Below the pieces are notes generated by a model. The model saw only the letters and a list, made by a program, of their open reading frames with translations. It made no database searches and was not told where the DNA came from. Of a stretch of DNA of 64,000 bases, positions 2,103 through 54,401 are shown piece after piece. The stretch lies in contig NZ_JOAN01000002.1 in NCBI RefSeq assembly GCF_000718555.1, positions 372,001 through 436,000 of the forward strand, in the 5' to 3' direction. Source of the DNA: Micromonospora chokoriensis. GTDB taxonomy: Bacteria; Actinomycetota; Actinomycetes; Mycobacteriales; Micromonosporaceae. Position 1 is the first letter of the stretch, and each line of letters starts with the position of its first letter. The position numbers were made by a program, and so were the translations under genes.

Positions 2103-2120
2103 GTCACGTAAAGGAGTGGC
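2103..2120 (-). promoter_or_regulatory. Cluster box 1 with -10 for the P450/sulfotransferase unit
   Basis: GTCACGTAAAGGAGTGGC matches the repeated inverted-repeat box of this cluster. On the minus strand a TAGCGT -10-like hexamer occupies 2079-2074, separated by 23 nt, placing transcription start near 2067, about 20 nt before the P450 ATG. Confidence 0.6.
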
Positions 2121-2144
2121 CATCGCCGAGCTGGTGAGACGGCT

Positions 2145-2162
2145 GTCCCCTAAAGCGGGGAA
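2145..2162 (+). promoter_or_regulatory. Cluster box 2, upstream of the VOC/Tyr-hydroxylase operon
   Basis: GTCCCCTAAAGCGGGGAA is one of the best copies of the repeated box. A weak GACCAT hexamer lies 24 nt downstream (2187-2192). It would drive the operon beginning at 2233. The -10 here is poorer than at the other sites. Confidence 0.5.
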
Positions 2163-2232
2163 GCGCTGCGCGCGCGGTCACTGAACGACCATGGAGGCCA
2201 GGTGACGCCTGGGACGTATGGAGTGATGCACG

Positions 2233-2706
2233 ATGGCAGAAGCACACGGCCGACGGGACCCCCGGTTCCACCACGTCGGGATCCAGACGAACGACCTGGG
2301 CAACAGCGTGTCCTGGTACGAGGAGTTTCTCGGCTGCAAGCCCTCCTGGACCCTGGAGCAGTTCTCCGACCTGACCCGCAGCCGACTGCCGGGCATCCGC
2401 ACGCTCACCGAGCTGACCCTCGGCGACCTTCGCCTGCACCTGTTCGAGCGGCCCGGCAGCGCCACCGACCCGGCCATCAGCGACGTGCGCTTCCAGCATT
2501 TCTGCCTCTCCGTCGACGACCCTGAGGAGCTCGTCCGGTTGCGTGACCGCTGGATCGCCCTGCACGCGTCGGGCCGCTACACGTTCGCCGTGGACGAGCC
2601 CCCCACCGACGTGGTGGTGGACGCGGACGGGGTCCAGAGCTTCTACGCGTACGACGTCAACGGGCTCGAGTTCGAGTTCACGCACGTGCCGGCTCCAGCC
2701 TCATGA
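2233..2706 (+). CDS. VOC-family dioxygenase, L-DOPA 2,3-dioxygenase-like (LmbB1 type)
   Basis: A 157-aa vicinal-oxygen-chelate protein with the expected metal ligands: His in FHHVGIQTND (about residue 14), His in QHFCLSVDD (about 86) and Glu in GLEFEFTHV near the C-terminus. Extradiol L-DOPA 2,3-dioxygenases of 4-alkyl-L-proline pathways (lincomycin LmbB1 and its pyrrolobenzodiazepine and hormaomycin counterparts) are VOC proteins of this size. The generic family alone would not settle function, but the next two genes are homologues of the other two core enzymes of that pathway, and all are translationally coupled. The likely reaction is ring opening of L-DOPA followed by cyclisation to a pyrroline. 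A GGAG lies 10 nt before the ATG. Confidence 0.72.
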   Translation: MAEAHGRRDPRFHHVGIQTNDLGNSVSWYEEFLGCKPSWTLEQFSDLTRSRLPGIRTLTELTLGDLRLHLFERPGSATDPAISDVRFQHFCLSVDDPEELVRLRDRWIALHASGRYTFAVDEPPTDVVVDADGVQSFYAYDVNGLEFEFTHVPAPAS

Positions 2707-3659
2707 TGCGTGGACCGGCCACGCCGATCGCCGACCCGCCGGCCGAGGAGGCCTGGGACTTCGGCGGGTATCCGTACGCCCTGGAACCGCTGTTGCTGCC
2801 TCCGGTGGACGCGACCAGCGCGCTGGCGGGCCCGGACGTGCCGGCGGAGCACGTCGAGGCGAGCCGGTTAATCGGCGCCCTGGCCGAGGGCGGGCCGACG
2901 GTGTACCGCGGCGAGCCCGAGGAGCTGTTCTGGTTCCGCTGGATCACCGGCCACCAGGTGTGCTTCCTGCTCTGGCGACTGATGCGTCAGCTCCTCGAGG
3001 AGGTCGCGGAGGACAAGGCGACCACCGACGAGGCGATCGGGCCGCTGAGCCGTTACGTCGACGGCTACTCGGCCATGCTGCTCTACACCGGGTCGTGCAC
3101 CCACCAGATCTACAACGACCTGATCCGGCCCAGCATGCGGCTGCGGCACCGCGCGTTCAGCGGGAGCTGGGCGCCGGACTACCCGCACGTCCGCGCGCTG
3201 CTGCGCGGCCGTCCGCAGGCCCGGCTGACCAACGGCCCGAGCGAGTTGGACGACGCGGTGCGGCTGCACGGCCGGGTGCACGACGGCGTGGCGGCGCGGC
3301 TGGTGCCGGACGGCCACTCACTGCTCAATCAGGCGCCGGTGCGCCGGCTGAACCACGGGCTGCTGGGCATCGCCTACGACAGCTACTTCGTGACCGTGCG
3401 CACCCGGGTCAACCGCGCGCAGGCGGTGGGCCAGCTGATGCGCCGGCTCACCGCGATCGTCCGCGACCTGAGCGCTAACGGCCTCTACCCCTTCCCCGAC
3501 GACGGCGTGCTCCCCGACGAGCTGCGGCTCGACGAGGTGGTGTCGTGCGCGGCCGGGATGCGGCGCATCCTCGCCGACGTGGCCCGGGCCGCCGCGGGTG
3601 GCCCGGCGCATCGGCCGCACCCGATGGGCAGCGGCGTGGCGAAGGCGGCCCGCGCATGA
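2703..3659 (+). CDS. Heme-dependent L-tyrosine 3-hydroxylase-like protein (TDO superfamily)
   Basis: A 318-aa, mostly helical protein of the tryptophan 2,3-dioxygenase-like heme superfamily. Recognisable segments are ELFWFRWITGHQVCFLLW (about 79-96) and TGSCTHQIYNDLIRPSMRLR (about 137-156), which contain candidate heme-ligand histidines. In lincomycin, anthramycin, tomaymycin and hormaomycin clusters such proteins (LmbB2 type) convert tyrosine to L-DOPA using peroxide. The preceding VOC gene overlaps it by 4 nt (ATGA), as does the following gamma-glutamyltransferase gene. The trio reproduces the Tyr to DOPA to pyrroline to C-C cleavage sequence. A true tryptophan dioxygenase (kynurenine route) is the alternative but fits the neighbours less well. 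Confidence 0.72.
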   Translation: MMRGPATPIADPPAEEAWDFGGYPYALEPLLLPPVDATSALAGPDVPAEHVEASRLIGALAEGGPTVYRGEPEELFWFRWITGHQVCFLLWRLMRQLLEEVAEDKATTDEAIGPLSRYVDGYSAMLLYTGSCTHQIYNDLIRPSMRLRHRAFSGSWAPDYPHVRALLRGRPQARLTNGPSELDDAVRLHGRVHDGVAARLVPDGHSLLNQAPVRRLNHGLLGIAYDSYFVTVRTRVNRAQAVGQLMRRLTAIVRDLSANGLYPFPDDGVLPDELRLDEVVSCAAGMRRILADVARAAAGGPAHRPHPMGSGVAKAARA

Positions 3660-5461: not shown

Positions 5462-5483
5462 AGGTACGGAGAGGACTGGTGAC

Positions 5484-6254: not shown

Positions 6255-6259
6255 CCACC

Positions 6260-10556: not shown

Positions 10557-10861
10557 ACGACCCGCAACAGGACACCGTGGTGCGGCGGGAGGAGCGGGAG
10601 CTCTCGTCGGACTACCGGGCGCCGGGCAGCCCGCTCGAACAGGAACTGGCCCGGATGTGGAGCGAATACCTCAAGGTCGACCGGATCGGGGTGGACGACG
10701 ACTTCTTCGAGCTCGGCGGCCACTCGCTGCGGGCCGCGGACCTGCTAGTGGCCACCGAGCGCGCGATGGGCGTGCATGTGCCGGCCACCACGCTCTACCT
10801 GCAGCCCACCATCGCCGAGCTGGCCGAGGCGATCGAGCAGCTCCGGGACGGTGGATCGTGA
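10553..10861 (+). CDS. Stand-alone thiolation (peptidyl carrier) protein
   Basis: A 102-aa protein consisting of one T domain. After an N-terminal extension of about 25 residues comes LEQELARMWSEYLKVDRIGV and the phosphopantetheine site FFELGGHSLRAADLL (Ser about 60). It overlaps both flanking P450 genes by 4 nt. A free carrier among three P450s implies that one oxidation substrate is held here rather than on the A-T didomain. It has no adenylation domain of its own and must be charged by the A-T protein or another A domain. Confidence 0.93.
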   Translation: MNDPQQDTVVRREERELSSDYRAPGSPLEQELARMWSEYLKVDRIGVDDDFFELGGHSLRAADLLVATERAMGVHVPATTLYLQPTIAELAEAIEQLRDGGS

Positions 10862-13013: not shown

Positions 13014-13031
13014 GTCGCAAGAACACCTGAC
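13014..13031 (+). promoter_or_regulatory. Cluster box (divergent copy) upstream of the FAAL synthetase
   Basis: GTCGCAAGAACACCTGAC keeps the outer arms of the box. A TTGGCT hexamer lies 23 nt downstream (13055-13060), and the GTG start at 13102 follows. This is one of the weaker copies, but the spacing is the same as elsewhere. Confidence 0.4.
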
Positions 13032-13101
13032 AGGCGGGACCGTGTGCCGCCGGGTTGGCTGGGAGGTGGAGCGGGTCGATCGGCACATCGGAAGGACAGC
13101 A

Positions 13102-17278: not shown

Positions 17279-17296
17279 GTCCCCGCTTTCGGCGAC
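17279..17296 (+). promoter_or_regulatory. Cluster box between the thioesterase and T-C-A-T genes
   Basis: GTCCCCGCTTTCGGCGAC, whose reverse complement GTCGCCGAAAGCGGGGAC fits the consensus. On the plus strand a TAACGT hexamer lies 23 nt on (17320-17325), putting the predicted transcription start at or next to ATG 17332. The transcript would be leaderless. A weak TTGACT lies 23 nt away on the minus side. Confidence 0.6.
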
Positions 17297-17331
17297 GTCC
17301 CCGCGCCCGGTGGGTTGCCTAACGTGGCGTC

Positions 17332-38937: not shown

Positions 38938-39007
38938 GCCGATGATTACCCCCTCGCCTTCGAGTCCTGCCGCACCGACGCTACGGGCGTGGTCCGAAGG
39001 GTGTCGT

Positions 39008-39025
39008 GTCGCCGGAACCGGCGAC
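39008..39025 (-). promoter_or_regulatory. Cluster box for the minus-strand C-A-T/PKS/LanB operon
   Basis: GTCGCCGGAACCGGCGAC is an almost perfect palindrome. On the minus strand TAGCGT lies at 38983-38978, 24 nt away, giving a predicted start near 38971 and a short leader before ATG 38937. Confidence 0.6.
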
Positions 39026-39048: not shown

Positions 39049-39066
39049 GCCACGGTTTCCGGTGAC
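39049..39066 (+). promoter_or_regulatory. Cluster box for the plus-strand C-T-C-A-T operon
   Basis: GCCACGGTTTCCGGTGAC; its reverse complement fits the consensus. TAGTGT lies 23 nt downstream at 39090-39095, predicting a start near 39102, about 45 nt before GTG 39146. Confidence 0.6.
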
Positions 39067-39145
39067 ACGACGGGCGATCGCGCGGTTCGTAGTGTCGGCC
39101 CCAGGCGAAGGGTCGCGTGTGGGCGGAGGCCGGCGAGGACAAGGG

Positions 39146-43822: not shown

Positions 43823-44249
43823 GCGCTCCGACAGCTACAGCGTCTCGATCAGCGCGCCGGTCGACTTCGTCTGGGCCACGCTGGCGACCGTCGCCGACTG
43901 GCCCCGCTTCTCCCCGTTCGCGCTGCGCGTACGCCCGGAGTCGCCAGGCACCTTCACGGTCACCAGCCCCACCGGCGACGTGCGGCTGACCAGCCACTTC
44001 GACGAGGCGCTGCGGTTGCTCGACCACACCGTGACGCTCGCCGACGGCACCGACGTCTTCATCCCCTACCGGGTGACACCCAACCACCGCGGCAGCGAGC
44101 TGATCATGACGAACGTGAAGTCGCCGACGGACAGCGCGGCGGAGTACGAGGAGCAGCTCGGCTGGATGCGCACCGAGCTGGCGAACGCGAAGACATACGT
44201 CGAGGAGTGCTACGCCGCGCGAGGCGAAGGGGCGAGCCGTGCTGACTGA
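43797..44249 (+). CDS. SRPBCC (START-like / polyketide cyclase-like) protein
   Basis: A 150-aa protein of the SRPBCC fold, recognised from the opening YSVSISAPVDFVWATLATVADWPRFSPF and a C-terminal amphipathic helix (EEQLGWMRTELANAKTYVEE). These proteins form a hydrophobic cavity and include aromatase/cyclases and Pictet-Spengler-type or lipid-binding proteins. No catalytic residue can be assigned. It overlaps the synthetase stop by 26 nt and the peptidase start by 11 nt, so it is firmly in the operon. A cyclase or ligand-binding role on the assembled chain is possible. Confidence 0.8.
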   Translation: MSTPPCATERSDSYSVSISAPVDFVWATLATVADWPRFSPFALRVRPESPGTFTVTSPTGDVRLTSHFDEALRLLDHTVTLADGTDVFIPYRVTPNHRGSELIMTNVKSPTDSAAEYEEQLGWMRTELANAKTYVEECYAARGEGASRAD

Positions 44250-46572
44250 GACCGTGACCGCTCCACCGCCACGCGCTGCGGCGCCACCCCCGGGGCGGAC
44301 GAGTCCGCTGCCCGCGCTTATCGCGATCGGCGCGCTGATCCTCCTGACCGCCCTGACCCTGCTGAGCCTGCGGCCGGCCGGGCCGGAGCCGGCGTCCGCG
44401 CCGGCGACGGAGTTCTCCGCCGACCGTGCGATGGCCAAGCTCGACCGGATCGCCGCCCGCGCGCACCCCACCGGTTCGCCGACGCACCAGCAGGTCCGCG
44501 ACTATCTGGTGGCGGAGCTGCGAGCGGCCGGGCTGGAGCCCTCGGTGCAGGACCGGGTCGCGGTGCGGGCTACCGAGAACACGCTGGACGCCGGGTCGGT
44601 GTCGAATGTCTACGCCACCATCGCCGGACGGCAGTCGACCGGGCAGGTGCTGCTGGTCGCCCACTACGATTCGGTGCCGATCGGGCCCGGCGCGGCCGAC
44701 AACGGCGGCAACGTCGCCGCGCTGCTCGAGATCGTCCGGGTGCTCAAGGCCGGCGCGCAGTCCCGCAACGACATCGGCGTGCTCTTCACCGACGCGGAGG
44801 AGCAGGGGCTACTCGGCGCGAAGGCGTTCCTGGACTCGGGCGCCGCCGGCGACCCGGCCCGGGTGGTGGCGGTGAATTTCGAGGCACGCGGTTCGTCCGG
44901 GCCTGCGGTCATGTTCGAGACCGTGGGGGGAGACCTGACCCCGGCCGTACGGGCGTCGGGCGCCCTGACCACGTCGGCGGCCGTCCAGGTCTATCGGGCG
45001 ATGCCCAACGACACTGACCTGAGTGTGCTCGGCGACGCCGGCATGCGGGGCCTGAACCTCGCCCACCTGGCTGGTGCGGGCCACTATCACACGGCCCACG
45101 ACAGCGCCGACCGGTTGAGCCGGGCCAGTGTGCAGGACATGGGCGAGGCCGGGCTGGGCGCCGCCCGCGAGCTGGCCGGCGCCGACCTCGCCGACACCGG
45201 CAGCGAGGGCACCTTCTTCTCGTTCTTCGGCACGGTGATCTGGTATCCCGCCCTACTCGTGCTCCCGCTCGCGGTGCTGACCGCAGCGGGTTTCCTGGCG
45301 CTGCTGTGGTGGGGCCGGCGACGTGGGCTCTCCCCACGCGGGGTGGCGCGCACGGTCGTCACGCTGCCGCTGTGCCTGCTCGCCGCGGCCGTTCTCGGGC
45401 AGATCGGCTGGCTGATCCTGGCCGGTCGGTCGCCGGGCTCGTTCCTGCTGATGGGTGGGGTCTACCACCCGGCCCGCTACCTGATCGGCGTGGCGGCGCT
45501 GCTGCTGGTGGCCCTGCTCGTCTGGTATCGCTGGGCACGGCGACGGGCGTCCGCGCTGGACGCGATGGTCGGCGTGGCCGGCTGGTTCAGCCTGCTGGCC
45601 GTCGCCTGCGCGGTGCTGGCCCCCGGCGCGGCCTATCTGTTCACCTGGCCGGCGCTGGCCGGCCTGGCCGGCGCGTGGCTGGCGCTGCGGCGCGGCCCGG
45701 CCGATCCGCTGTGGACGGCGGTGGCCGGCGGCGTGTTCGCGGCGGTGGCCGTAGTGCTGGTGCTGCCGGTCGTGATGCTGATGGTCCCGCCGCTCGGCCT
45801 GCCGCTCACCGTGCTGCGGCTGCTGCTCGCGATCACCCTCGGCGCGGCTCTCCTGGCCGTGCTCGGCCCGCTGCCCCCGCGCCGCGCGCTCACCGCAGGG
45901 ATGCTCACGCTGACCGTCGCCGGGGTCGCCGCGATCGTGATCGTGGCCGCCGGCGACCGCTACAGCAGCCGCGACCCGCAGCCGGTCAGCCTCGGCTATC
46001 TGCTGGAGGCGGACGCCGGGCGGGCGTCGTGGATCAGCAACGGCGGACCGGCCCAGCCGGTGGTCGGGCCGCTGCTCAACGGCGGCGGCATCGTTCCCGA
46101 CCAGCGGGTGCCACACCTGGCCGGCGCCCAACTGCAGGCCGGACCGGCGGCGGTGGCGCCCGAGGTGCGCGGCGCGCAGGTGGAGCAGCCCACCACGCGG
46201 GTGCAGGACGGGGTGACCACGACCCAGGCGCGGATCCGGGTGCCCGCCGACGTCTACAGCATCATCGTCTTCGCCGACACGTCGGCGCATGAGATTCTCG
46301 GCGCCACGGTCAACGGCGGTGAGCTGCCGGGTGGGCGCAACGTCGGGGCGGCTTCGGCACCCTGGGGCTGGGGCTTCGGCTATGCCGGCCCGCCGGCCGA
46401 CGGGGTCGAGCTGACCATCCGGTCGCGCGGCACCGGAGCGCTGCGGATCCTGGTCACCACGACCACGGCCGGCCTACCCGCCTCCGCGCCGCTGCTGCCG
46501 GCGGACCTGAGCTGGGCGAACTGGCCGTCGGTCGCCGGGCAGACCTTCGTCGTGAGCACCCACCGGCTATGA
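44239..46572 (+). CDS. Membrane M28-family metallopeptidase
   Basis: A 777-aa protein. A first membrane segment (about 26-47) precedes an M28 zinc aminopeptidase domain (about 60-320). Metal ligands and catalytic residues are visible in AHYDSVPIGPGAADNGG (about 141-157), TDAEEQGLLGA (about 183) and HYHTAHDSADRL (about 283). After it come about seven hydrophobic helices (340-565) and a C-terminal extracytoplasmic-type domain. The catalytic domain is therefore anchored and probably outside the cell. Beside a lipo-initiating NRPS and an exporter, it could remove an N-terminal acyl or leader residue from an inactive precursor, as the unrelated peptidases XcnG and ClbP do. It could instead confer self-resistance. 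Start GTG 44239. Confidence 0.85.
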   Translation: MLTETVTAPPPRAAAPPPGRTSPLPALIAIGALILLTALTLLSLRPAGPEPASAPATEFSADRAMAKLDRIAARAHPTGSPTHQQVRDYLVAELRAAGLEPSVQDRVAVRATENTLDAGSVSNVYATIAGRQSTGQVLLVAHYDSVPIGPGAADNGGNVAALLEIVRVLKAGAQSRNDIGVLFTDAEEQGLLGAKAFLDSGAAGDPARVVAVNFEARGSSGPAVMFETVGGDLTPAVRASGALTTSAAVQVYRAMPNDTDLSVLGDAGMRGLNLAHLAGAGHYHTAHDSADRLSRASVQDMGEAGLGAARELAGADLADTGSEGTFFSFFGTVIWYPALLVLPLAVLTAAGFLALLWWGRRRGLSPRGVARTVVTLPLCLLAAAVLGQIGWLILAGRSPGSFLLMGGVYHPARYLIGVAALLLVALLVWYRWARRRASALDAMVGVAGWFSLLAVACAVLAPGAAYLFTWPALAGLAGAWLALRRGPADPLWTAVAGGVFAAVAVVLVLPVVMLMVPPLGLPLTVLRLLLAITLGAALLAVLGPLPPRRALTAGMLTLTVAGVAAIVIVAAGDRYSSRDPQPVSLGYLLEADAGRASWISNGGPAQPVVGPLLNGGGIVPDQRVPHLAGAQLQAGPAAVAPEVRGAQVEQPTTRVQDGVTTTQARIRVPADVYSIIVFADTSAHEILGATVNGGELPGGRNVGAASAPWGWGFGYAGPPADGVELTIRSRGTGALRILVTTTTAGLPASAPLLPADLSWANWPSVAGQTFVVSTHRL

Positions 46573-47753
46573 CCACAACCGAGCCCGTCTACGACCCGTT
46601 CTCGTACCTCCTGCACGAGGACCCCTATCCGACCTATGCCTGGATGCGCGAGCACGCGCCGCTCTATCGGAACGAGTCCCGAAACTTCTGGGCCCTGTCC
46701 CGCTATGCCGACGTGCAGGCGGCGCTGCGTAACCCGGGCCTGTTCTCCAGCCGCAACGGCATCTCACTGGAACCGGACCTGTGGGGTCCCGAGGCCGAGA
46801 AGACCAGCTTCTATCTCGCCATGGACCCGCCCCGGCACGGGCGGATGCGCCGGCTGACCGGGTCGGTCTTCAAGCCCCGGTGGGTTCAGACGATGGAGCC
46901 GCGGATCCGGGAGCTGGCCCGGGCCCGGCTGGCGCCGCTGCGCGACGGGGGCACGTTCGACCTGGCCGACTTCGGCGCCGCGCTGCCGCACGACGTGATG
47001 TGCGAGCTGATCGGCATCCCGGCGGCGGACCGCGACGCGCTACGCGTCGACAACGACCTGCTCAACCACTGCGAGGACGGCTTGGAGACGCGGTCAGCGG
47101 CGACCCTGGCCGCGGGATTCCGGCTGGCCGTCTACTACGTCAGCCTGATCAACGACCGGCGGCGTCAGCGGCGCGACGACCTGCTGTCGACCATGCTGGA
47201 CACCGAGACGGAGGAGGGCCCGCTGACCGACGGGCAGCTCGTCGCGTTCCTCTTTCTCATGGTCAGCGCCACCAACGAGTCGACGGGCAAGCAGATCGGC
47301 ATCGCGCTGCACCATGGGTGGCGGCTGCCCGAGGTGCGGCGGGCCGGGCTGAACGGCCGCGCCGCGGACTGGTGCGACGAGTCGCTGCGCTTCGACTCGC
47401 CCAGCCAGATGATGGCCCGCACGCTGACCGAGGAGACGGTGCTGCACGGCGAGCGGCTGCCGGCCGGCGCCCGGGTGGCTCTGCTGCCCGCCTCCGGCAA
47501 CCGGGACGAGCGGGTGTTCGCCGACCCGGACGTGTTCGCCCTCGACCGGGACACCAGCGCCATGATCAGTTTCGGTCTCGGGCCACATTTCTGCCCGGGT
47601 GCCGGCCTGGCCCGGCTGGAGATCACGATCGCGCTGCAAGAGTTCGGCGCGCTGGTGTCCGACTACGAGATCGACATGGACCGGGCCCGCCTGGTGCACT
47701 CGCCGCACCAGCGCGGGTTCCTCTCCCTACCGGCAACCGTCACCCGTCGCTGA
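46569..47753 (+). CDS. Cytochrome P450
   Basis: A 394-aa P450 with heme loop FGLGPHFCPGAGLAR (Cys about 342) and I helix FLMVSATNESTGKQ (about 234). The acidic Glu precedes Ser, where Thr is usual. The K helix has DESLRF. It belongs to a different subfamily from the four P450s at the left end and lacks their SNFxxG tail. It is coupled by ATGA to the membrane peptidase gene and probably performs a late oxidation. Its 3' end overlaps the convergent PLP-enzyme gene by 14 nt. Confidence 0.9.
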   Translation: MTTTEPVYDPFSYLLHEDPYPTYAWMREHAPLYRNESRNFWALSRYADVQAALRNPGLFSSRNGISLEPDLWGPEAEKTSFYLAMDPPRHGRMRRLTGSVFKPRWVQTMEPRIRELARARLAPLRDGGTFDLADFGAALPHDVMCELIGIPAADRDALRVDNDLLNHCEDGLETRSAATLAAGFRLAVYYVSLINDRRRQRRDDLLSTMLDTETEEGPLTDGQLVAFLFLMVSATNESTGKQIGIALHHGWRLPEVRRAGLNGRAADWCDESLRFDSPSQMMARTLTEETVLHGERLPAGARVALLPASGNRDERVFADPDVFALDRDTSAMISFGLGPHFCPGAGLARLEITIALQEFGALVSDYEIDMDRARLVHSPHQRGFLSLPATVTRR

Positions 47754-48855
47754 GCACCGTTTCCAGGGCCGCCAGCCCGGCGGCCAGCTCGGCGCGGGTG
47801 CCGCCGAAGCCCAGCCGGGCATAGCCCGTGAAGTCGTCGCCGAAGCACTCGCCCGGGACCAGCAGCACCCGATGCTCCTGGGCGAGTCGCCGGCACAGGT
47901 CGGTGACGTCGGCGCAGCGCGGGAACCGGACGAACGCGGCGACCCCACCGTCGGGCGGGTCGAGCCGCACCTGGTCACCCATCCGGTCCGCCCACTCGGT
48001 CAGGTAGAGCAGGTTGCCGGCGGCGTGCTCGCGCTGCATCGCGACGATCCGGTCGGCGTTGCGCACCGCCTTCTCGGCGAAGAACTCCAGCACCGGCGAG
48101 ACGTAGAGGGCGATGTAGTCGCGTAGCACCGCCATCCGGGCGAGCAACTCGTTCGGCGCCACGCACCAGCCGACCCGGATGCCAGCCAGCCCGTAGCTCT
48201 TGGAGAAGGTGCCGAACGCGATGAGCCGGTCGTACCAGATCGGCAGCGGCAGCGGGTCGGCGGCGTAGGTCAGCTCGCCGAAGGCGTGGTCCCAGACCAG
48301 CCAGGCGCCCGCCTCGTCGGCGATCTCCACCAGCTCGCGTTGCTGCTCCGGGGTGATCGAGCGGCCGGTCGGGTTGTGCGGAAAGTTGACCACGATCATG
48401 CGCGGCCGGCGCTCGGCCAGCTTGCGCAGCGCGGCCAGATCGGCGGCGAACCCGCCCTCGTCCTGCCGCAGCGGCCAGCGGGTGATCGTGCAGCCCAGCG
48501 CGCCGGCGATGTCGTAGAGCTGCTGATAGGCCGGGTCGACCACGATGATCTCGTCGCCCGGGTCGAGCACGGTGTGCATGACGATGTAGATCGCCTCGCT
48601 CGAGCCGTGCGTCACCATCATCCGGTCCGGGTCCCCGGCGAGCCAGCGGTCGGCCAGGGCCGCGCGCAGCGCCGTGCCGCCGAAGCTCTCGCTGTCGTGG
48701 AAGATCATCGGATCGAGCTCGTCGAGGTCGAAGCCACAGATCTCGCGCAGCTCCTTGATGGTCAGGTCGCGGACACCACTGCTGCCGATGTCGTGGTCGA
48801 CGTTGTGGTAGTAGAGCCGCATCCACTCCTCGAGCTTGGCCAGCGCGATCTTCAT
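47740..48855 (-). CDS. Capreomycidine synthase-like PLP enzyme (VioD type)
   Basis: A 371-aa fold-type I PLP enzyme. It matches my memory of viomycin VioD block by block: DIGSSGVRDLT (about 20), THGSSEAIYIVM (about 87), VNFPHNPTGRSIT (about 160), FGTFSKSYGLAGIRVGWC with the PLP Lys (about 224) and PGECFGDDF near the end. VioD removes the 3-hydroxyl of (3S)-hydroxyarginine and cyclises it to capreomycidine. A VioC-like hydroxylase is encoded at 53276, supplying the expected substrate. The start is ATG 48855. A GATAGT hexamer 24 nt from the box at 48893 predicts a start at or next to the ATG (leaderless). Confidence 0.87.
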   Translation of the reverse strand: MKIALAKLEEWMRLYYHNVDHDIGSSGVRDLTIKELREICGFDLDELDPMIFHDSESFGGTALRAALADRWLAGDPDRMMVTHGSSEAIYIVMHTVLDPGDEIIVVDPAYQQLYDIAGALGCTITRWPLRQDEGGFAADLAALRKLAERRPRMIVVNFPHNPTGRSITPEQQRELVEIADEAGAWLVWDHAFGELTYAADPLPLPIWYDRLIAFGTFSKSYGLAGIRVGWCVAPNELLARMAVLRDYIALYVSPVLEFFAEKAVRNADRIVAMQREHAAGNLLYLTEWADRMGDQVRLDPPDGGVAAFVRFPRCADVTDLCRRLAQEHRVLLVPGECFGDDFTGYARLGFGGTRAELAAGLAALETVLSDG

Positions 48856-48892
48856 GCGCCTCACTATCGGCGGCCGGGCCGCGTCCGGGGGC

Positions 48893-48910
48893 GTCGCGTG
48901 AAGCGGTGAC
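48893..48910. promoter_or_regulatory. Cluster box, divergent, between the VioD-like and MbtH genes
   Basis: GTCGCGTGAAGCGGTGAC. Both sides carry a -10-like hexamer at 24 nt: TACGGT (48935-48940) on the plus strand and GATAGT (48868-48863) on the minus strand. One central operator could serve both genes. Confidence 0.62.
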
Positions 48911-48972
48911 AGGTGCCGTGCCGCTCCGGATGAGTACGGTCGCGTCGAGCCGATCTGCGAGGAGCCGTGCCC

Positions 48973-49179
48973 ATGAATGTCTTCGACGACCCCGACGGAA
49001 CCTTCCTGGTGCTCGTGAACGACGAGGAGCAGCATTCCCTCTGGCCGAGTTCGCTGGACGTGCCGGCGGGCTGGCGCGTCGCCCACGGCCCGGAATCCCG
49101 GCAGGCGTGCCTGGACCACGTCGAGCAGCACTGGACTGACATCACGCCGCTGAGCGTGCGGCAGGCGTTGGCGTCATAA
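48973..49179 (+). CDS. MbtH-like protein
   Basis: A 68-aa protein with the family signature: NVFDDPDGTFLVLVNDEEQHSLWP at the N-terminus, then PAGWRV and the C-terminal WTDITPLSVRQ. MbtH proteins bind A domains and are needed for folding or activity of many of them. The window holds two complete amino-acid A domains, part of a third, and at least two remnants, so it is likely an essential partner. The gene has its own box-driven promoter (48893), and a GAGGA precedes the ATG. It overlaps the convergent SDR-like gene by 6 nt. Confidence 0.95.
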   Translation: MNVFDDPDGTFLVLVNDEEQHSLWPSSLDVPAGWRVAHGPESRQACLDHVEQHWTDITPLSVRQALAS

Positions 49180-49860
49180 CCCGCCGCTCGGGGGATCACG
49201 CAGGAGGTCGGCCAGCCATCGCGACAGGTCGACCTCGCCGGCTGCCGGCGACGGATAGGTGTCGATGACGATGCCGGTGCCGGCCAGTTCGTCGGCCACG
49301 GACCGGGTGAACTCGTTTACCCGGTCCGTGGCGGCCGCCCCCGCCGCCCTCACGCCCGGCCCGTCCAGCACATAGGCGATGCGCCCGTAGTGTTGCCGGC
49401 GCATCAGCGGCTCCACGGCGTGGATCAGCTGCCGGGTGCCGGCCAGGTTCTCCTCCAGGATCATCAACTCCGCGCCGGTGGTCACCGTCGCGTCGACCAA
49501 CACGTCGCAGCGGCCCAGCCGCATCCGCAGCCACGTCGTGAGGCGTTCGACGCTGTCCGGGTCGGTGAGGGTCAGCTGGCGTACGGCGACGCGGTCCGCG
49601 AGATCGCCGAGCAGCGCGACCGCCGCCCTTCCGCTGATCCCGGAAGGGCTCGTGAGCACAACCCGGACCGGCGACTCAGCGAGCGCGCGGGTGATCGTGA
49701 GGGTCAACGCGGGGTCGCCCTCGATCACGACGGCGACGGGCTCCTCCACCGGTTCGAACCGCGTGGCGCCCGCCTGCCCGGCCGGTGATCCGATCGCTCG
49801 CAAGGGGATCACCTTGGCCCCGTCGTCGCGTGCGATGCGTCGCGCATCGCGATTCGGCAT
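49174..49860 (-). CDS. Degenerate SDR-like Rossmann protein
   Basis: A 228-aa protein with the strand-helix pattern of short-chain dehydrogenases (VAVVIEGDPALTLTITRALA; VRVVLTSPSG; DVLVDATV; GRIAYVLDG). The glycine-rich TGxxxGxG loop is missing, and no YxxxK catalytic pair is visible after the AYVLDGPG strand. It is therefore unlikely to be an active dehydrogenase. It may bind a ligand or be a regulatory relic. A 35-residue basic N-terminal extension precedes the fold. It sits beside the LuxR-type regulator and faces away from it. Confidence 0.6.
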   Translation of the reverse strand: MPNRDARRIARDDGAKVIPLRAIGSPAGQAGATRFEPVEEPVAVVIEGDPALTLTITRALAESPVRVVLTSPSGISGRAAVALLGDLADRVAVRQLTLTDPDSVERLTTWLRMRLGRCDVLVDATVTTGAELMILEENLAGTRQLIHAVEPLMRRQHYGRIAYVLDGPGVRAAGAAATDRVNEFTRSVADELAGTGIVIDTYPSPAAGEVDLSRWLADLLRDPPSGGL

Positions 49861-50044
49861 CGTCGGTCACCTCTTTCAGGCCGTGCGGGGGCGCAGGGAG
49901 ATCATGGTCGAACGATGCACGGTGTCGCGTCACGTCGCTTGTTGCAGCTACCGACCGCCACGGGCTCCCGACCCGATAGATGACCATCGGTGCCATGGAT
50001 TACCCCAGCTCGACGACCATTACCAGGAGTTAACACTTGTCACT

Positions 50045-50062
50045 GTCCCGTGAAGCAGGGAT
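50045..50062 (+). promoter_or_regulatory. Cluster box in the promoter of the LuxR-type regulator
   Basis: GTCCCGTGAAGCAGGGAT, one of the closest copies to consensus. TACTGT lies 23 nt downstream (50086-50091), predicting a start near 50098. The position implies autoregulation. The rest of the 295-nt gap 49861-50155 shows no other gene or clear signal. Confidence 0.65.
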
Positions 50063-50155
50063 GCTTGGCCCCGGAGGGCCGCTGCTACTGTCGACCGAGT
50101 TGGTGATCGATCGGCAATCTCATCGAAAACAATCGATGCAGAGCGCACCCTGACC

Positions 50156-50815
50156 ATGGCGTTTGCGGCACACAATCCGTCGCCAACGCCACAGACACGA
50201 TTTGTAGCGGGGTACGGGGCCTTGATTCGGATCGATGTTCTCAGCAGCTCACCCATCTACCTGGTGGGCATGCTCCACACAATGGATCAGGCCGGCATCA
50301 AAGTCGTGTCCGCCCGAACGTCCTCCGACGACGAGGCTTCCTGGCTGGCCGACGCCACCCTGATCGATACCGACGCTCTACCGCCCTTCGGCGAGCTCGA
50401 GCACATCGCCGAGACGGCAAAGTGCACGCAGGTCATCGTGGTCAACGACGAGCCGCCGTGCGAGAGCGCACGCTTCCTGCGCGTCGGCGCGGCGGGTGTG
50501 ATCAACAAACGGGACCCGGCAGAGCGGGTCGTTGACGCCATCCGGTCGGTCACCTCCGGGCGCAACGTCGTGCCGGCCGACCAGGAACCACCGACGGTCA
50601 CCTGGACCGATGCCGTCGGGCGCAGCCTGAGCCAGCGGGAGATGCAGGTGCTACGGCAGATCGCCCGAGGGCTGACGCACGGCCAGATCGCCACCCGGCT
50701 CGGCATCAGCCCGCACACGGTAGACACCTATGTCAAGCGCATCCGCGCCAAGCTCGGCGTCGGCAACAAGGCCGAGCTGACGCGAGCCGCGCTGCTCGGC
50801 AGGCTGGCCGGCTGA
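50156..50815 (+). CDS. LuxR/NarL-type regulator with atypical receiver domain
   Basis: A protein of about 219 aa. The N-terminal half has a response-regulator layout, but the acidic pocket is lost: IRIDVLSSSPIYLVG replaces the usual DD pair, although an Asp in ATLIDTDAL and a Lys in INKRDP remain. Phosphorylation-independent action is likely. The C-terminal HTH is a clear NarL/LuxR type: LSQREMQVLRQIARGLTHGQ, then ISPHTVDTYVKRIRAKLGVGNKAELTRA. No sensor kinase gene adjoins it. It is the only regulator in the window, and its promoter carries the repeated box, so it is the prime candidate for binding all eleven copies. Start is uncertain: ATG 50156 has a poor ribosome site, and TTG 50221 is possible. 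Confidence 0.85.
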   Translation: MAFAAHNPSPTPQTRFVAGYGALIRIDVLSSSPIYLVGMLHTMDQAGIKVVSARTSSDDEASWLADATLIDTDALPPFGELEHIAETAKCTQVIVVNDEPPCESARFLRVGAAGVINKRDPAERVVDAIRSVTSGRNVVPADQEPPTVTWTDAVGRSLSQREMQVLRQIARGLTHGQIATRLGISPHTVDTYVKRIRAKLGVGNKAELTRAALLGRLAG

Positions 50816-50852
50816 TCGGCCGATCGGCCCCCGACCGCGACGGAGATCAAGC

Positions 50853-52019
50853 ATGCGGCTCAGCCGCCGGACACTCAGCCAGATCGACTCGCCGATCTCC
50901 GACACCTACGCGCTGCTCGACGAGCGCACGGCGGGCGGCGAGGTGCTCGACCTGGCCCAGGCGGCGCCGCGCTATCCACCCGCGCCCGAGGTCGTCGAGC
51001 ACATCGCCGCGGTGGCCCGCGACCCGCACGGTGCCGACTACGTCGAGCTTGGCGGCCTGCCGCACCTGCGGGAGGCGTTCGCGCTGGAGCTGTCGCGCGA
51101 CTACCGCGGCGCCGTCCAGCCCGAGCAGGTGCTGGTCACGGCCGGCTGCAACCAGGCGTTCTGCCTCGTCACCTCGGCCCTGGCTGGCCCCGGCGACGAG
51201 GTCGTGCTGACCGTGCCCTACTACTTCAACCACGACATGTGGCTGCGCCTGGACGGCGTGACCCCGGTCTATCTCGACCCGGGCCCCGACCTGGTGCCAA
51301 GCGCCGCCGCGGCAGAGGCGCTGATCACCGGACGCACCCGGGCGATCGTGCTGGTGTCGCCGGGCAACCCCAGCGGTGTGGTGGTACCCCCGGAGCGGAT
51401 CGCCGAGCTGGCCGCGGTGGCCCATCGGCACGGCATCGCCCTCGTGCTGGACGAGACCTACCGGTCGTTCCGCGGCACCGACGAGCCGGCACATCCGCTG
51501 TTCGCCGATCCGGGCTGGCCGGAGACCGTGGTCAGCCTGCACAGCTTCGCGAAAGACCTGGCCATCCCCGGCTATCGGGTGGGCGCCGTGGTGGCGTCGG
51601 CCCGGCTCAACCGGGAAATCATGAAGCTGCTCGACTGCGTCGCGATCTGCGCGCCGCGGATCGGCCAGGAGGCCGCCTGGGCCGGTCTTGTCCGGGCCGG
51701 CGCGTGGCGAGCCCAGCGGGCCCGCGACCTGCTGGCGAAGCGTGACCACTTCCGGTCGGTGCTGGCCGATCGCCCAGGCGGGTTCGAGCTGCTGGCCGCC
51801 GGTGGCTTCTTCGGTTGGCTACGGCACCCGTTCCGGGACCGGCCCACGACCGAGGTCGTCCGCGATCTGGTTCTACGCCACGACACCCTGGTCATTCCCG
51901 GAACGGCATTCGAACCCGGCGACCGGCACACGCTGCGCGTGAGCTTCGGCAACGCGGGCCAGGACGAGATGAGCCGGTTCGCCGACCGGCTGACCGCCAT
52001 GGCCTTAGCCCCTTCTTGA
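50853..52019 (+). CDS. Class I/II PLP-dependent aminotransferase
   Basis: A 388-aa fold-type I aminotransferase. It has LVTAGCNQAFCLVTSAL (PLP phosphate region, about 93), LVSPGNPSGVVVPPE (about 169), LDETYRSF and the Schiff-base Lys in SFAKDLAIPGYRVG (about 233). Downstream is an MppP-like arginine oxidase whose 2-keto products need transamination, the job done by MppQ in enduracididine biosynthesis. The likely role is therefore re-amination of (4-hydroxy-)2-ketoarginine, though this is inferred from context. ATG 50853 has GGAG upstream. The gene is 37 nt after the regulator and may be co-transcribed. A cluster box overlaps its stop codon. Confidence 0.85.
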   Translation: MRLSRRTLSQIDSPISDTYALLDERTAGGEVLDLAQAAPRYPPAPEVVEHIAAVARDPHGADYVELGGLPHLREAFALELSRDYRGAVQPEQVLVTAGCNQAFCLVTSALAGPGDEVVLTVPYYFNHDMWLRLDGVTPVYLDPGPDLVPSAAAAEALITGRTRAIVLVSPGNPSGVVVPPERIAELAAVAHRHGIALVLDETYRSFRGTDEPAHPLFADPGWPETVVSLHSFAKDLAIPGYRVGAVVASARLNREIMKLLDCVAICAPRIGQEAAWAGLVRAGAWRAQRARDLLAKRDHFRSVLADRPGGFELLAAGGFFGWLRHPFRDRPTTEVVRDLVLRHDTLVIPGTAFEPGDRHTLRVSFGNAGQDEMSRFADRLTAMALAPS

Positions 52020-52025
52020 TGGGAC
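52008..52025 (+). promoter_or_regulatory. Cluster box upstream of the MppP-like gene
   Basis: GCCCCTTCTTGATGGGAC; its reverse complement fits the consensus. It overlaps the stop of the aminotransferase gene. TAGGGT lies 23 nt downstream (52049-52054), giving a start near 52061 and a leader with GGGAGGA before ATG 52090. Confidence 0.55.
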
Positions 52026-52089
52026 AAGAACGCATCCGGCGCGCCGCCTAGGGTTCTTGCAGGCAGCGCTCGCAGCGGGAGGACCGACG

Positions 52090-53229
52090 ATGACCCCAGT
52101 CGCCAATCTGACCACCATGGAAGTCGACGCGTTGACCGACGTCGACGGCGGGCTCAATCTCACGGACGGCCACGCCCGATTCGTCCTCAGCGGACAGCAG
52201 GCCGAGATCATCGGGCGGCTGCCGGAGATGTTCGCCGACGCGTCCCGGCGGTCGTTCCCCGAGATCGAGCGGGAGGCGCACACCACCTTCCTGCACGCGG
52301 TGGGGCAGCACACGGCGCCGATCGGCACTGGCCGGATCCTCAGCTGCTACTCCTCCACACTGGCGACCGACATCGTGGCGCGGGCCCTGCCGGCCGGCGC
52401 GACGATCGCCGTGCTGCACCCCACGTTCGACAACATCGCGGACCTGTTCGTCACCCGCGGGCTCGAATTGGTGCCGCTGCCCGAGGAGGCGCTGCTGGCA
52501 CGCCAGTGGCCGCAATCGCCGGTGCGCGCGGTCGTGCTCACCCACCCGAACAACCCAACCGGCCTGGTGACCCCGCAGGAGCACCTGCGCTCGCTCGGCG
52601 AGCACGCCGCCCGGAACGGGCAGATCGTCATCCTCGACGCCAGCTTCCGCGGGCAGGTGCACGACGCCCAGTACGACACCTACGCGGTGCTCGACTCCAC
52701 CGGGGCCGACTGGATCACGATCGAGGACACCGGCAAGCTCTGGCCGACGCACGAGCTCAAGATCGGCCTGCTCGCGTACAGCAGCCGCCTCACCCTGCCG
52801 ATCGAGCGGGCCTTCTCCGAGTCGCTGCTCTCCGCCTCGCCGGTCGTGCTCCGACTGATCACCGAGCTGGCCCGGGACTGGACCACCGGCGGTTACGAGC
52901 GGTCGCACCGGTTCATCGAGGACAACCGCGAGATCATACGCAGCACCATCGCCGAGGTGGGGCTCTCGCTGGCCGACCCGGAGTCGCGGATCAGCGTGGC
53001 CCGCATCGAACTGCCGGCCGACGGCCCCGACTCCAACCTGCTCTACAAGGACATGCTGAACCGGGGTGTGCACGTGCTGCCCTGCGCGCCGTTCCACTGG
53101 GCGGACCCGGAGGGCGGGCTACGGTTCATCCGGCTCTCGTTGGCCCGGCCGCGAGCAACGATCATCACCGCCGCCCAGGCTCTCGCCGCCTCATATCTCG
53201 ACCTCTCGGCCGCCTCGACCAGGAAGTAG
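52090..53229 (+). CDS. MppP-like PLP-dependent L-arginine oxidase/hydroxylase
   Basis: A 379-aa PLP enzyme matching MppP/RohP-type arginine hydroxylases: LNLTDGHARFVLS near the N-terminus, RILSCYSSTLATDIVARALP (about 90), LHPTFDNIADLF, THPNNPTG, and the PLP Lys in IEDTGKLWPTHELKIG (about 218), then CAPFHWADPEGG near the C-terminus. These unusual enzymes oxidise L-arginine with O2 and no other cofactor to 4-hydroxy-2-ketoarginine and 2-ketoarginine. The MppR-like cyclase needed for enduracididine is not in the window, whereas VioC- and VioD-like genes are. The product may therefore feed a different branch, for example 4-hydroxyarginine made by the adjacent aminotransferase. Confidence 0.87.
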   Translation: MTPVANLTTMEVDALTDVDGGLNLTDGHARFVLSGQQAEIIGRLPEMFADASRRSFPEIEREAHTTFLHAVGQHTAPIGTGRILSCYSSTLATDIVARALPAGATIAVLHPTFDNIADLFVTRGLELVPLPEEALLARQWPQSPVRAVVLTHPNNPTGLVTPQEHLRSLGEHAARNGQIVILDASFRGQVHDAQYDTYAVLDSTGADWITIEDTGKLWPTHELKIGLLAYSSRLTLPIERAFSESLLSASPVVLRLITELARDWTTGGYERSHRFIEDNREIIRSTIAEVGLSLADPESRISVARIELPADGPDSNLLYKDMLNRGVHVLPCAPFHWADPEGGLRFIRLSLARPRATIITAAQALAASYLDLSAASTRK

Positions 53230-53238
53230 GCGGACAGT

Positions 53239-53268
53239 CGCGCCGGCACCCCGCGGGGCGCCGGCGCG
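53239..53268. terminator. Bidirectional hairpin terminator
   Basis: A 9-bp GC-rich stem (53239-53247 with 53260-53268) carries a further inner CCCC/GGGG pairing. It lies between the convergent MppP-like and VioC-like genes and is suited to ending transcripts from both sides. Confidence 0.65.
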
Positions 53269-53275
53269 TTCACCG

Positions 53276-54319
53276 TCACTGAATGATCCGGCTGTCCGCA
53301 GAGGTGCGCCAGGCCCGCGAACCGCGGATGTTGCGGGTGATGTTCAGCCGCTTGAGCCACCGGTCGGAGCCGTCGTAGCGCGGCTGGAACGACTTACGGC
53401 CGTGCACCGCGCGGAAGTTGTCGATGAAGACGCAGTCGCCGGGCCGCAGCGCGACCGTGGACATCCGCTCCTCGATCTGGGCGCACAATCCGTCGAACGC
53501 CTGCCGGTGGCGCTCCGGCCACCCGCTCGAATCCATGTGATAGGGGTCGAGCGCCAGGTAGGGGCTGCCCGGGTCGCCGAAGAACAGCGGCCGCTGCTCG
53601 GGCTTCTCGTTCCACTGCTCGATCAGCCGGAAACTGCGCGCCCGCAACGCGTCCAGCGCCGGATCACCAGTCGACCCGCGGGACAGCTGCGGCTGGTGCG
53701 AGTTGTCGGGCATCACGGTGAACTCGGGCTCGAACAGCGCGGCCACGTCCAGCCGCTCGACGTCCAGCAGGTCGATGCTGCAGACCATCGTCTCCACGTC
53801 GTCCGGGTTCTTCAGGCACATCAGCGCGACATAGTCGCCCCGGCACGGGTGGAACGCGTCCTCGGTGTGCCAGGACAGATGCTGCAGGCTGTTCGAGCCG
53901 ATCTCGTAGTGCTCGTGTCCCTTGATCGGCAGCACGTCGTGCATGATCCGGCCGTCCTGCTGGGTGCCCCAGCCGAAGACGTCGCCGAGCGCCGACCCGC
54001 ACAGCAGGAAGAAGATCTCCTGGCGGAAGGCCGGCGAGGCGTGCTGGCTGTCCCGCCAGTGCGTCGGGGTCGGCCCAAGTTCCTGTTCGTCGACCGCCAG
54101 GCCGGAGACCACGCAGAGCGCCGACGGCTCGCCGAGCCGGAACTCTTCGAGGAACTCCAGGAGGTGCGCGGGCAACTCCCGGGTGAGCACCGGCGACCGC
54201 CGGATCAGGTCCTCGTTCTCGATGGTGTCGTACTGGCGCGCCAAGTCGGCGAGCATCGGCGCCAGCGCCGCGTTGTCCGCGGGAGTGAGTGCCAGGTGGT
54301 GCGTCGCGATATCGGTCAC
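53276..54319 (-). CDS. VioC-like arginine beta-hydroxylase (Fe(II)/2-oxoglutarate oxygenase)
   Basis: A 347-aa TauD/clavaminate-synthase-like oxygenase. The iron-binding HxE is in WHTEDAFHPCRGDYVALM (about 150), the distal His in AVHGRKSFQPRYDGSDRWLK (about 305), followed by the 2-oxoglutarate Arg region RLNITRN. The preceding DVFGWGTQQDGRIMHDVLPI block and the C-terminus match viomycin VioC closely from memory. VioC makes (3S)-hydroxyarginine, the substrate of the VioD-like enzyme at 47740. The start is GTG 54319. The -10-like TAACCT 23 nt from the box at 54355 places transcription start at this codon, so a leaderless mRNA is predicted. Confidence 0.88.
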   Translation of the reverse strand: MTDIATHHLALTPADNAALAPMLADLARQYDTIENEDLIRRSPVLTRELPAHLLEFLEEFRLGEPSALCVVSGLAVDEQELGPTPTHWRDSQHASPAFRQEIFFLLCGSALGDVFGWGTQQDGRIMHDVLPIKGHEHYEIGSNSLQHLSWHTEDAFHPCRGDYVALMCLKNPDDVETMVCSIDLLDVERLDVAALFEPEFTVMPDNSHQPQLSRGSTGDPALDALRARSFRLIEQWNEKPEQRPLFFGDPGSPYLALDPYHMDSSGWPERHRQAFDGLCAQIEERMSTVALRPGDCVFIDNFRAVHGRKSFQPRYDGSDRWLKRLNITRNIRGSRAWRTSADSRIIQ

Positions 54320-54354
54320 TCCCCGAGGTTATGAACGTTTGCGCGGCCGCATCG

Positions 54355-54372
54355 GTCCCCGTAAGCAGGGAC
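54355..54372 (-). promoter_or_regulatory. Cluster box for the VioC-like gene
   Basis: GTCCCCGTAAGCAGGGAC, a near-perfect palindrome. TAACCT lies 23 nt away on the minus strand (54331-54326), with the predicted start at the GTG codon 54319. Confidence 0.62.
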
Positions 54373-54383
54373 ACCACCGCATC

Positions 54384-54401
54384 GCACCATCAATCGGGGA
54401 C
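54384..54401 (+). promoter_or_regulatory. Cluster box (weaker copy) for the MFS/megasynthase operon
   Basis: GCACCATCAATCGGGGAC keeps the right arm of the box. CAGGCT lies 23 nt downstream (54425-54430), placing transcription start at or next to ATG 54437. It is the second box in this divergent region. Confidence 0.45.

Follow-up and report, generated by a model that had tools for sequence, protein, structure and literature searches.

A phased inverted repeat as the putative operator of orphan NarL/LuxR-type regulators in an NRPS/PKS gene cluster of Micromonospora chokoriensis

Many transcription units of a large gene cluster of antibiotic type, in a 64,000-nt stretch of the Micromonospora chokoriensis genome (contig NZ_JOAN01000002.1, positions 372,001 to 436,000; the window hereafter) appear to begin behind the same 18-bp inverted repeat, which raises the question of whether these boxes are one operator, which protein would read it and how far it reaches. 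The original prediction listed eleven boxes, each facing a -10-like hexamer. All eleven starts are correct, and each hexamer named lies at its stated place, 23 or 24 nt beyond the edge of its box. A strict TAnnnT is found at this distance for eight of the eleven (2103, 17279, 39008, 39049, 48893, 50045, 52008 and 54355); the hexamers of the other three are GACCAT (2145), TTGGCT (13014) and CAGGCT (54384). The features are given below in window coordinates, with matches to the composite model (box, 23–24 nt, TAnnnT) that is treated further on.

Box 2103..2120, minus strand: -10 TAGCGT at 2074-2079 (23 nt); faces a P450 gene (805-2046, minus strand); composite match.
Box 2145..2162, plus strand: strong box with a weak GACCAT at 2187-2192 (24 nt); no TAnnnT, no composite match; downstream are a glyoxalase-like gene (2233-2706) and then further genes.
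Claimed box 13014..13031, plus strand: TTGGCT at 13055-13060 (23 nt); before the FAAL gene; unsupported.
Box 17279..17296, plus strand: -10 TAACGT at 17320-17325; ATG 17332 lies 6 nt beyond the -10, where a leaderless start would be expected; composite match.
Box 39008..39025, minus strand: -10 TAGCGT at 38978-38983 (24 nt); faces the C-A-T, PKS and LanB-like genes (minus strand); composite match.
Box 39049..39066, plus strand: -10 TAGTGT at 39090-39095 (23 nt); faces the C-T-C-A-T NRPS gene; composite match.
Box 48893..48910, both directions: single box between the divergent VioD-like gene (minus strand) and MbtH gene (48967-49179, plus strand); GATAGT at 48863-48868 (24 nt) on the VioD-like side, the gene start then being at or below 48855; TACGGT at 48935-48940 (24 nt) on the MbtH side; composite match.
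Box 49934..49951, minus strand: GACCAT at 49904-49909 (24 nt); faces an SDR gene (49174-49860, minus strand); no TAnnnT, no composite match.
Box 50045..50062, plus strand: -10 TACTGT at 50086-50091 (23 nt); upstream of R1; composite match.
R1, 50156..50815, plus strand: orphan NarL/LuxR-type regulator gene, predicted receiver-like domain plus LuxR helix-turn-helix (HTH).
Box 52008..52025, plus strand: -10 TAGGGT at 52049-52054 (23 nt); faces an MppP-like gene, its start then being downstream of 52057; composite match.
Box 54355..54372, minus strand: -10 TAACCT at 54326-54331 (23 nt); GTG 54319 of the VioC-like gene is 6 nt beyond; composite match.
Box 54384..54401, plus strand: weaker box (10.5); CAGGCT at 54425-54430 (23 nt); ATG 54437 of the MFS gene is 6 nt beyond; no composite match.

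Leave-one-out matrix scores range from 10.5 to 17.4 for ten of the eleven boxes, with 7.2 for box 13014. The matrix scan of the window also gives 15 unlisted places scoring at least 7: twelve at 7.0–9.7, one at 6069 (10.9, within a reading frame), one at 53275 (12.5) and box 49934 (15.1), which we added to the list. Against this background 13014 is in the noise and has no composite-model match, so the claim of a box before the FAAL gene is not supported, and boxes 54384 (10.5) and 2103 (11.2) are not distinguished by box score alone. The phased hexamers at 2145 and 54384 are in the predicted positions, but are not of the TAnnnT form. Place 53275 was taken as chance: it coincides with the 3' terminus of the VioC-like gene, at a convergent-gene junction, and has no phased hexamer.

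The spacing is reproduced in DNA that was not part of the original prediction. Using a matrix built from the 11 window boxes only (cut-off score >14), we searched unseen DNA for the box by itself and found 70 more; a TAnnnT is found 23 nt away in 28 of them and 24 nt away in 24 (52 together), compared with 0–3 times at every other offset from 0 to 44, so the fixed spacing earlier said to argue against chance is borne out. Boxes above 14 are also clustered: seven are in the unseen 20 kb directly upstream of the window, none in the next 60 kb upstream, and three in two other contigs of the same genome (280 kb; 3.0 expected under a first-order Markov model). Six of the ten boxes above 12 in this genome that are outside the original eleven have a phased TAnnnT. 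Pattern scans of the genome point the same way: all four occurrences of box-N23-TAnnnT are within the cluster, and among the genome matches listed for the strict box pattern (exact) eight of 17 distinct matches are in the cluster while none of the nine outside has a phased TAnnnT. The composite model, trained on promoters from other genomes only (located with the window's matrix, so that its box part is not independent), has 21 matches above 12 in the cluster stretch (L016, the window and L017), some of them two sides of one box and one (3898, 12.4) not a listed box, and none in a 340-kb control from the same genome. The loose pattern GTCNCNNNWWNCNGNGAC with at most one mismatch was too loose to be used alone (206+195 matches versus 136+140 for the reversed control). 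Separately, a conserved site of the same shape is found at C7:225957 of this genome, with TAACCA at 23 nt, and also, with TAACCT, in two regulator-less genomes (G005 and G130).

The boxes continue past both ends of the window. Seven additional boxes are located at C2:355199-364992, and another is at C2:439461 (TACCGT at 23 nt), so the limits of the cluster given earlier were largely the window's own; the full range, C2:355199 to C2:439461, spreads over ∼84 kb. The composite thereby carries the regulon past the left edge of the window by ∼17 kb and past its right edge by ∼3.5 kb, adding genes and a second regulator (R2, C2:355536-356123, 16 kb left of the window). R2 is 57% identical to R1, and residues 184–215 of the DNA-binding domain are identical in both. 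R1 had been described as the window's only LuxR-type regulator, which is true, but it is not the only one in the cluster; we regard both as candidate box binders. In a tree of 31 regulators, 18 of the 28 inner branches are open, too many to tell whether R1 and R2 represent two ancient lineages.

What kind of regulator is R1? Its C-terminus has a LuxR/GerE HTH (PF00196, E-value 3.1e-18, residues 157–212), as the label LuxR-type implied; it does not belong to the quorum-sensing LuxR class, having a receiver-like fold and no Pfam match to an autoinducer-binding domain at E ≤ 0.001. Pfam gives no match for a receiver domain either, and the N-terminal receiver fold is seen in predicted structure only: a (beta-alpha)5 order followed by the HTH, with pLDDT block means of 83–91 over residues 21–140 in the best of five models (two of the five are poor, with means of 59 and 52). 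Foldseek ranks NarL-family response regulators highest (ChrA, E-value 4e-11; also LiaR, DesR, RcsB and NarL), with whole-chain TM of only 0.37–0.53 and TMt of 0.73–0.77 for the DesR receiver alone. The true start of R1 may be ∼22 codons downstream of 50156; many relatives start just one residue ahead of the position that corresponds to I24. At the acid-pair positions, which were placed by eye against NarL, D is found at 30 in three of 43 sequences and at 31 in one of 43; S/T at 97 is found in four of 43, D71 in all 43 and K118 in 39 of 43. Lacking the usual acid pair, the R1 family is classified, from its residues, as putative atypical response regulators (pseudo-receivers), a kind defined by the loss of at least one of five conserved receiver residues. 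No partner histidine kinase was found among the window proteins scanned with Pfam, in a scan that covered part of the reading frames and of the flanking genes.

The tie between the box and a LuxR-type regulator is strong on comparative evidence. There are 1,076 regulator relatives at E ≤ 0.001 (the best 120 were listed), not all of which need be of the same kind. Around 29 of them (L060–L088) we found 62 boxes above 14 in 576 kb, compared with four in 288 kb around 16 GC-rich loci, out of 50 that share little beyond the HTH; the 29 are not independent, and L077 and the G150 stretch share a box context, both being among the 94 counted below. Among 160 genomes of the same genus, nine of which have the regulator at E ≤ 1e-25, box-N23-TAnnnT has 20 matches, concentrated near the regulator: five of the nine regulator-bearing genomes hold 14 (12 boxes, two counted in both directions), and the other 151 genomes hold six, in six genomes (Fisher test by genome, p 6e-5). 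With the pattern reversed as a control, eight matches turn up in the 160 genomes, none in the nine. With the M. chokoriensis genome excluded there are still 10 matches in eight regulator genomes versus six in 151, and all 10 are at most ∼20 kb from the regulator gene. The N23 composite is absent from four of the nine; the surroundings of the regulators have no phased box above 12 in G003 and G115, one weak box in G098 and one phased box in G099.

Box and spacing are conserved unevenly among gene families. A phased TAnnnT accompanies 79 of the 144 distinct boxes above 12 in the vicinity of regulators and is missing from the other 65. The box is found upstream of all 11 MppP-like relatives (10 phased) and, with a phased TAnnnT, of all nine VioC-like relatives; it is found for six of 11 AT50853 relatives (none phased), one of five M28 relatives and none of five lanB relatives. 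A box above 11 lies upstream of 14 of 33 regulator genes examined, so that not every regulator has a box at its own gene; TAnnnT at 22–25 nt is found in 10 of the 33 (five at 23/24 nt, five at 22 nt). HTH identity was rejected as a predictor of phased-box number, as there is no clear step between loci with at least 50 of 61 residues identical (phased box at 21 of 27) and those below (seven of 10; this group includes G150, G091 and G032, which gave no HTH match, probably from wrong-strand reading). The same arrangement recurs beside regulator relatives in other soil bacteria and so looks like a single pathway-wide switch; phasing, clustering and comparative evidence together support the idea that the box marks a pathway regulon.

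The promoters themselves suggest how such a switch could work. Across 92 phased promoters, the half-site on the -10 side differs from GnGAC in only one of 368 cells and the far half-site differs from GTCnC in 22 of 368. In the spacer, A next to the box carries 0.56 bit and no other column exceeds 0.16 bit; TTGACA is matched at four or more positions in seven of the 92 (a raw count), and no -35 consensus was seen. ATG is commonest 6–7 nt past the hexamer (12 of 94), and a start codon is 6 nt past it at 17279, 54355 and 54384. The box keeps a fixed distance from the -10, over the -35 region and with no good -35, as in class II promoters, and behaves as an operator would ∼44 nt ahead of where the -10 places the start, just as predicted. 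It is very probable, in our reading of the sequences, that a family of orphan NarL/LuxR-type regulators with a degenerate receiver uses the box as its operator, acting by class II activation as a pathway-wide switch. We infer that a dimer of this family (here R1 and R2) binds GTCnC-N3-WW-N3-GnGAC from about -53 to -36 and activates rather than represses; the promoter-side subunit, on GnGAC, would stand in for the -35 element and recruit sigma and RNA polymerase to the TAnnnT beginning 23–24 nt past the box, near presumptive start sites. The box-bearing units of the NRPS/PKS cluster would then be switched on together over the whole range. Being a palindrome, one box could drive both divergent genes, and since both regulator genes carry a box, the R1/R2 pair should feed back on itself.

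Other explanations fit parts of these data. The boxes and hexamers were chosen by eye, three of the eleven hexamers are not TAnnnT and 13014 is in the noise, so the set might be chance GC-rich inverted repeats; the phasing in unseen DNA and the composite model, which finds the cluster and nothing in the control, refute this for the set as a whole, leaving it almost no probability except at 13014, where it stands. It is very unlikely that the regulator is instead a repressor that covers the -35 region and is released by a signal or end product, as RedZ and JadR1 release DNA upon end-product binding (PMC12632262). A box at -53 to -36 does touch the polymerase footprint, but a near-invariant -10-side half-site is what polymerase contact would produce, the spacing is held to 1 nt, and promoters with no -35 consensus look dependent on help.

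Very unlikely, too, is that the box is bound not by the cluster's own regulators but by some NarL-type regulator of wide distribution, for instance the developmental regulator BldM. BldM is likewise an orphan atypical response regulator, and the half-site spacing of its Group I site TCACcCgnncGgGTGA, TCnC-N8-GnGA, agrees with that of the inner 16 bases of the box (PMC4125116). However, the regulator-less genomes have no excess of N23 composites over the reversed control, the composite matches adjoin the regulator gene, the central A/T pair and outer G/C of the box are absent from the BldM consensus, and the presence of BldM in these genomes is assumed.

The preferred reading has practical uses. 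The composite marks cluster membership of genes from sequence alone and is a ready reporter promoter for pseudo-receiver regulators, whose activation is called a mystery in a 2025 review (PMC12632262); expression of their own regulator is a possible route to wake silent clusters. More tentatively, we can imagine a portable promoter code: one operator read by a large pseudo-receiver regulator family across unlike actinobacterial clusters, with two paralogues in a single cluster sharing boxes as homo- or heterodimers, a near-invariant polymerase-facing half-site, leaderless starts and two-way boxes. In that case the two dissimilar receiver domains would allow a pair of signals, such as two intermediates or products of the pathway, to be combined at a single operator.

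Among the papers searched we recognised none on this cluster, capreomycidine-related work included, and none that had already described the operator. LuxR at a lux box near -42 is a known case of a class II activator promoter. The box shares its overlap with the -35 place and its fixed distance from the -10; unlike LuxR, the regulator here has no autoinducer-binding domain, and a single box can serve two divergent promoters. JadR1 is an OmpR-type regulator. Together with RedZ, PapR6 and VmsT it is among the pseudo-receiver regulators of antibiotic clusters described in PMC12632262. MilO of the mildiomycin cluster is also a cluster-situated LuxR-family activator and a putative atypical regulator, but its target is a single promoter, where it binds at three direct repeats, TGTCNNNCGGT, located 142 bp ahead of the start site (PMC11784345), whereas the cluster here has inverted repeats around -44 in front of many units. 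BldM and BldM-WhiI of Streptomyces share the orphan atypical response regulator and a 16-bp palindrome with the inner half-site spacing of the box; BldM differs in being developmental and not tied to one gene cluster, and its consensus has no central A/T pair or outer G/C, with no fixed -10 spacing given in the sections consulted (PMC4125116). A comparison by eye with TCACcCgnncGgGTGA shows the same agreement in inner spacing and difference in the centre and outer bases. The BldM-WhiI heterodimer is a precedent for two related regulators (PMC4125116), and each ingredient of the system described here already has a precedent.

The eleven boxes found by eye (18-bp inverted repeats, GTCnC-N3-WW-N3-GnGAC) are all present in the sequence at the starts claimed for them, and every hexamer named in the original prediction lies 23 or 24 nt from its box; eight of the eleven boxes have a strict TAnnnT. 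In leave-one-out matrix scoring ten boxes reach 10.5–17.4 and the box at 13014 reaches 7.2, and 15 unlisted window sites score at least 7 (the majority <10). Spacing inside the window is an unfair test, because boxes and hexamers were possibly chosen together by eye. A box matrix was trained on the eleven boxes, ignoring the hexamers, and applied to DNA outside the window (positions 372001–436000 of contig C2 in a 6.97 Mb genome). We observed seven boxes scoring >14 in the 20 kb just upstream of the window, one in the 35 kb downstream and none in the 60 kb beyond the upstream 20 kb. Two other contigs of the same genome (280 kb) hold three such boxes against 3.0 expected from a first-order Markov model, the 576 kb surrounding 29 relatives of the regulator R1 hold 62 against 6.0, and 288 kb at 16 GC-rich loci (drawn from 50 distant ones whose resemblance to the regulator goes little beyond the HTH) hold four against 6.0.

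The claim that the spacing is not random holds outside the window: at 70 boxes from the relatives' loci and the two flanking stretches, with TAnnnT tallied on both sides, the hexamer occurs 28 times at offset 23 and 24 times at offset 24, three times at 26, twice at 22 and at 33, and at most once at any other offset from 0 to 44. With boxes near locus ends left out and a score threshold of 12, a phased hexamer (TAnnnT at 23 or 24 nt) is found at 14 out of 21 boxes in this genome, the original eleven included, and at six out of the other ten; the fractions are 44/84 in the relatives' loci, 22/40 in same-genus stretches and 1/36 in controls. A composite model of box, spacing and hexamer, trained on 76 promoters solely from relatives (themselves picked up by the window's matrix), gave 12 matches in the window, eight in the upstream stretch and one in the downstream stretch, counting both sides of one box in several cases, and none in stretch L018 or in 340 kb of control DNA. 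It recovered eight of the eleven boxes, missing those at 2145, 13014 and 54384, and added an unlisted match at 3898 (score 12.4).

The boxes also track the regulator across genomes. A relative at E <= 1e-25 is encoded in nine out of 160 same-genus genomes; box-N23-TAnnnT (23-nt spacing only) occurs 20 times, spread over 11 genomes. Fourteen of these matches are in five of the nine regulator genomes (four in this genome, all inside the cluster) and six in six of the other 151 genomes; a reversed control pattern has eight matches, none in the nine. The four other regulator genomes with matches have ten between them, none farther than ∼20 kb from the regulator gene; four of these matches represent two boxes seen from both sides. 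Among stretches at eight other same-genus regulators, G079, G032 and G091 each have several phased boxes, G150 has one two-way box, and phased boxes are few or absent in G003, G115, G098 and G099. A palindrome resembling the box, with TAACC(T/A) 23 nt away, is kept in this genome (contig C7, 225957–225974; L043) and in two genomes without the regulator (L140, L148); it is possibly the site of another NarL-type protein. It is very likely, judging from sequence, that the box is the operator of the R1/R2 family.

Features referred to here are:
50156–50815 (+), R1, NarL/LuxR-type regulator
C2:355536, R2, paralogue of R1
21694–23988, protein with a LanB-type dehydratase N-terminal domain, adjoining two PKS genes
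44239–46572, M28 peptidase (777 aa, long additional part)
47740–48864, VioD-like protein
50853–52019, second aminotransferase (AT50853)
52057–53229, MppP-like protein, scoring under the NCBIfam cut-off
53276–54319, VioC-like protein

R1 has a LuxR HTH and a receiver fold predicted by structure modelling; its nearest relative among the matches listed is from Micromonospora sp. (94% identity over 90% of the length). In 43 sequences, D occurs at the acid-pair positions in three and in one, S/T at position 97 in four, the aspartate is retained in all 43, and 39 keep the lysine; by these sequences the regulators are of the kind that PMC12632262 describes as atypical response regulators. Numerous relatives begin one residue ahead of the I24 equivalent (ATG-reading numbering; P0003 has 197 aa), and the true start of R1 may lie ∼22 codons inside the ATG reading. 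R1 is the only LuxR-type regulator of the window, as had been stated, but not of the cluster: R2 lies 16 kb left of the window, with 57% overall identity to R1 and residues 184–215 (32 in a row) identical. Both genes have phased boxes (50045 with TACTGT for R1, L016:3409 with TAGCGT for R2). Other close pairs occur in Phytohabitans (both in L060), Asanoa (L063, L069), Catellatospora (L066, L067) and Actinobacteria bin AC_7 (L061, L064); a regulator tree gave no answer on the common origin of such pairs.

The boxes, first proposed as probably marking the cluster's limits, run beyond the window on both sides, from C2:355199 to C2:439461. The leftmost units (thioesterase, AMP-binding/methyltransferase protein) and the rightmost (class-IV aminotransferase) fit a single cluster. 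The LanB-like and M28 proteins each have relatives at five searched loci (36–47% and 51–55% identity); a possible role for the peptidase is to cleave a protecting group off a prodrug. The last four genes listed are grouped, placing capreomycidine-type and enduracididine-type arginine enzymes in one cluster, and relatives of several of the four co-occur in Phytohabitans, Asanoa, Nonomuraea, Planomonospora and Streptomyces loci.

Boxes (score >11, at most 350 bp upstream) at related genes
MppP-like: box 11/11, phased 10
VioC-like: box 9/9, phased 9
VioD-like: box 4/7, phased 3
P450d: box 5/9, phased 5
AT50853: box 6/11, phased 0
Mycothiol-transferase-like: box 3/5, phased 1
Glyoxalase-like: box 1/2, phased 0
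M28: box 1/5, phased 0
lanB: box 0/5
Thioesterase: box 0/1
Regulator: box 14/33, TAnnnT at 23/24 nt in 5 and at 22 nt in 5 more

Six of the 11 relatives of AT50853 have unphased boxes 52–81 bp upstream (L062, L065, L072, L080, L081, L084), possibly with another -10 or another role. Out of nine loci holding both vioC and mppP, eight have them divergent around one common box, which in seven of the eight is flanked on each side by TAnnnT; in L064 and the window each gene has a separate box. Phased boxes also precede other types of gene, encoding a fatty acid desaturase, Na/H exchanger, methyltransferases, an NRPS protein and an SDR, as would be expected if the box goes with the regulator.

In 92 phased promoters the half-site adjoining the -10 has G14, G16 and A17 in all and C18 in 91; the far half-site is looser (G1 85, T2 81, C3 92, C5 88), and both central positions are A/T. 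The spacer shows only an A beside the box, with no other clear signal and no -35. TAGCGT (19) and TACGGT (18) are the top hexamers in 94 promoters, among which one box, in a context common to L077 and L166 (G150), is entered twice. ATG peaks 6–7 nt past the hexamer (12/94), at the expected +1, and some leaderless transcripts are therefore predicted; window start codons at this position are 17332, 54319 and 54437. TAnnnT flanks 13 out of 144 distinct boxes on both sides and none of this genome's 21 (the box at 48893 has TACGGT on one side and GATAGT on the other). Boxes 49934–49951 and 2145–2162 are alike in having the non-standard hexamer GACCAT 24 nt away on the side of their gene. This geometry makes class II activation from the box likely.

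There is precedent for proteins of this type, for the class II layout and for palindromic operators of the NarL type. The BldM site (PMC4125116) agrees by eye with the inner half-site spacing of the box and differs in the centre and outer bases. MilO (PMC11784345), which regulates a cluster and is broadly of R1's type, binds direct repeats far upstream of a single promoter. Within the searchable literature, what appears to be new is the operator itself, its tight regulon-wide geometry, the near-invariant half-site on the -10 side, the boxes that face both ways and the presence of two regulators.
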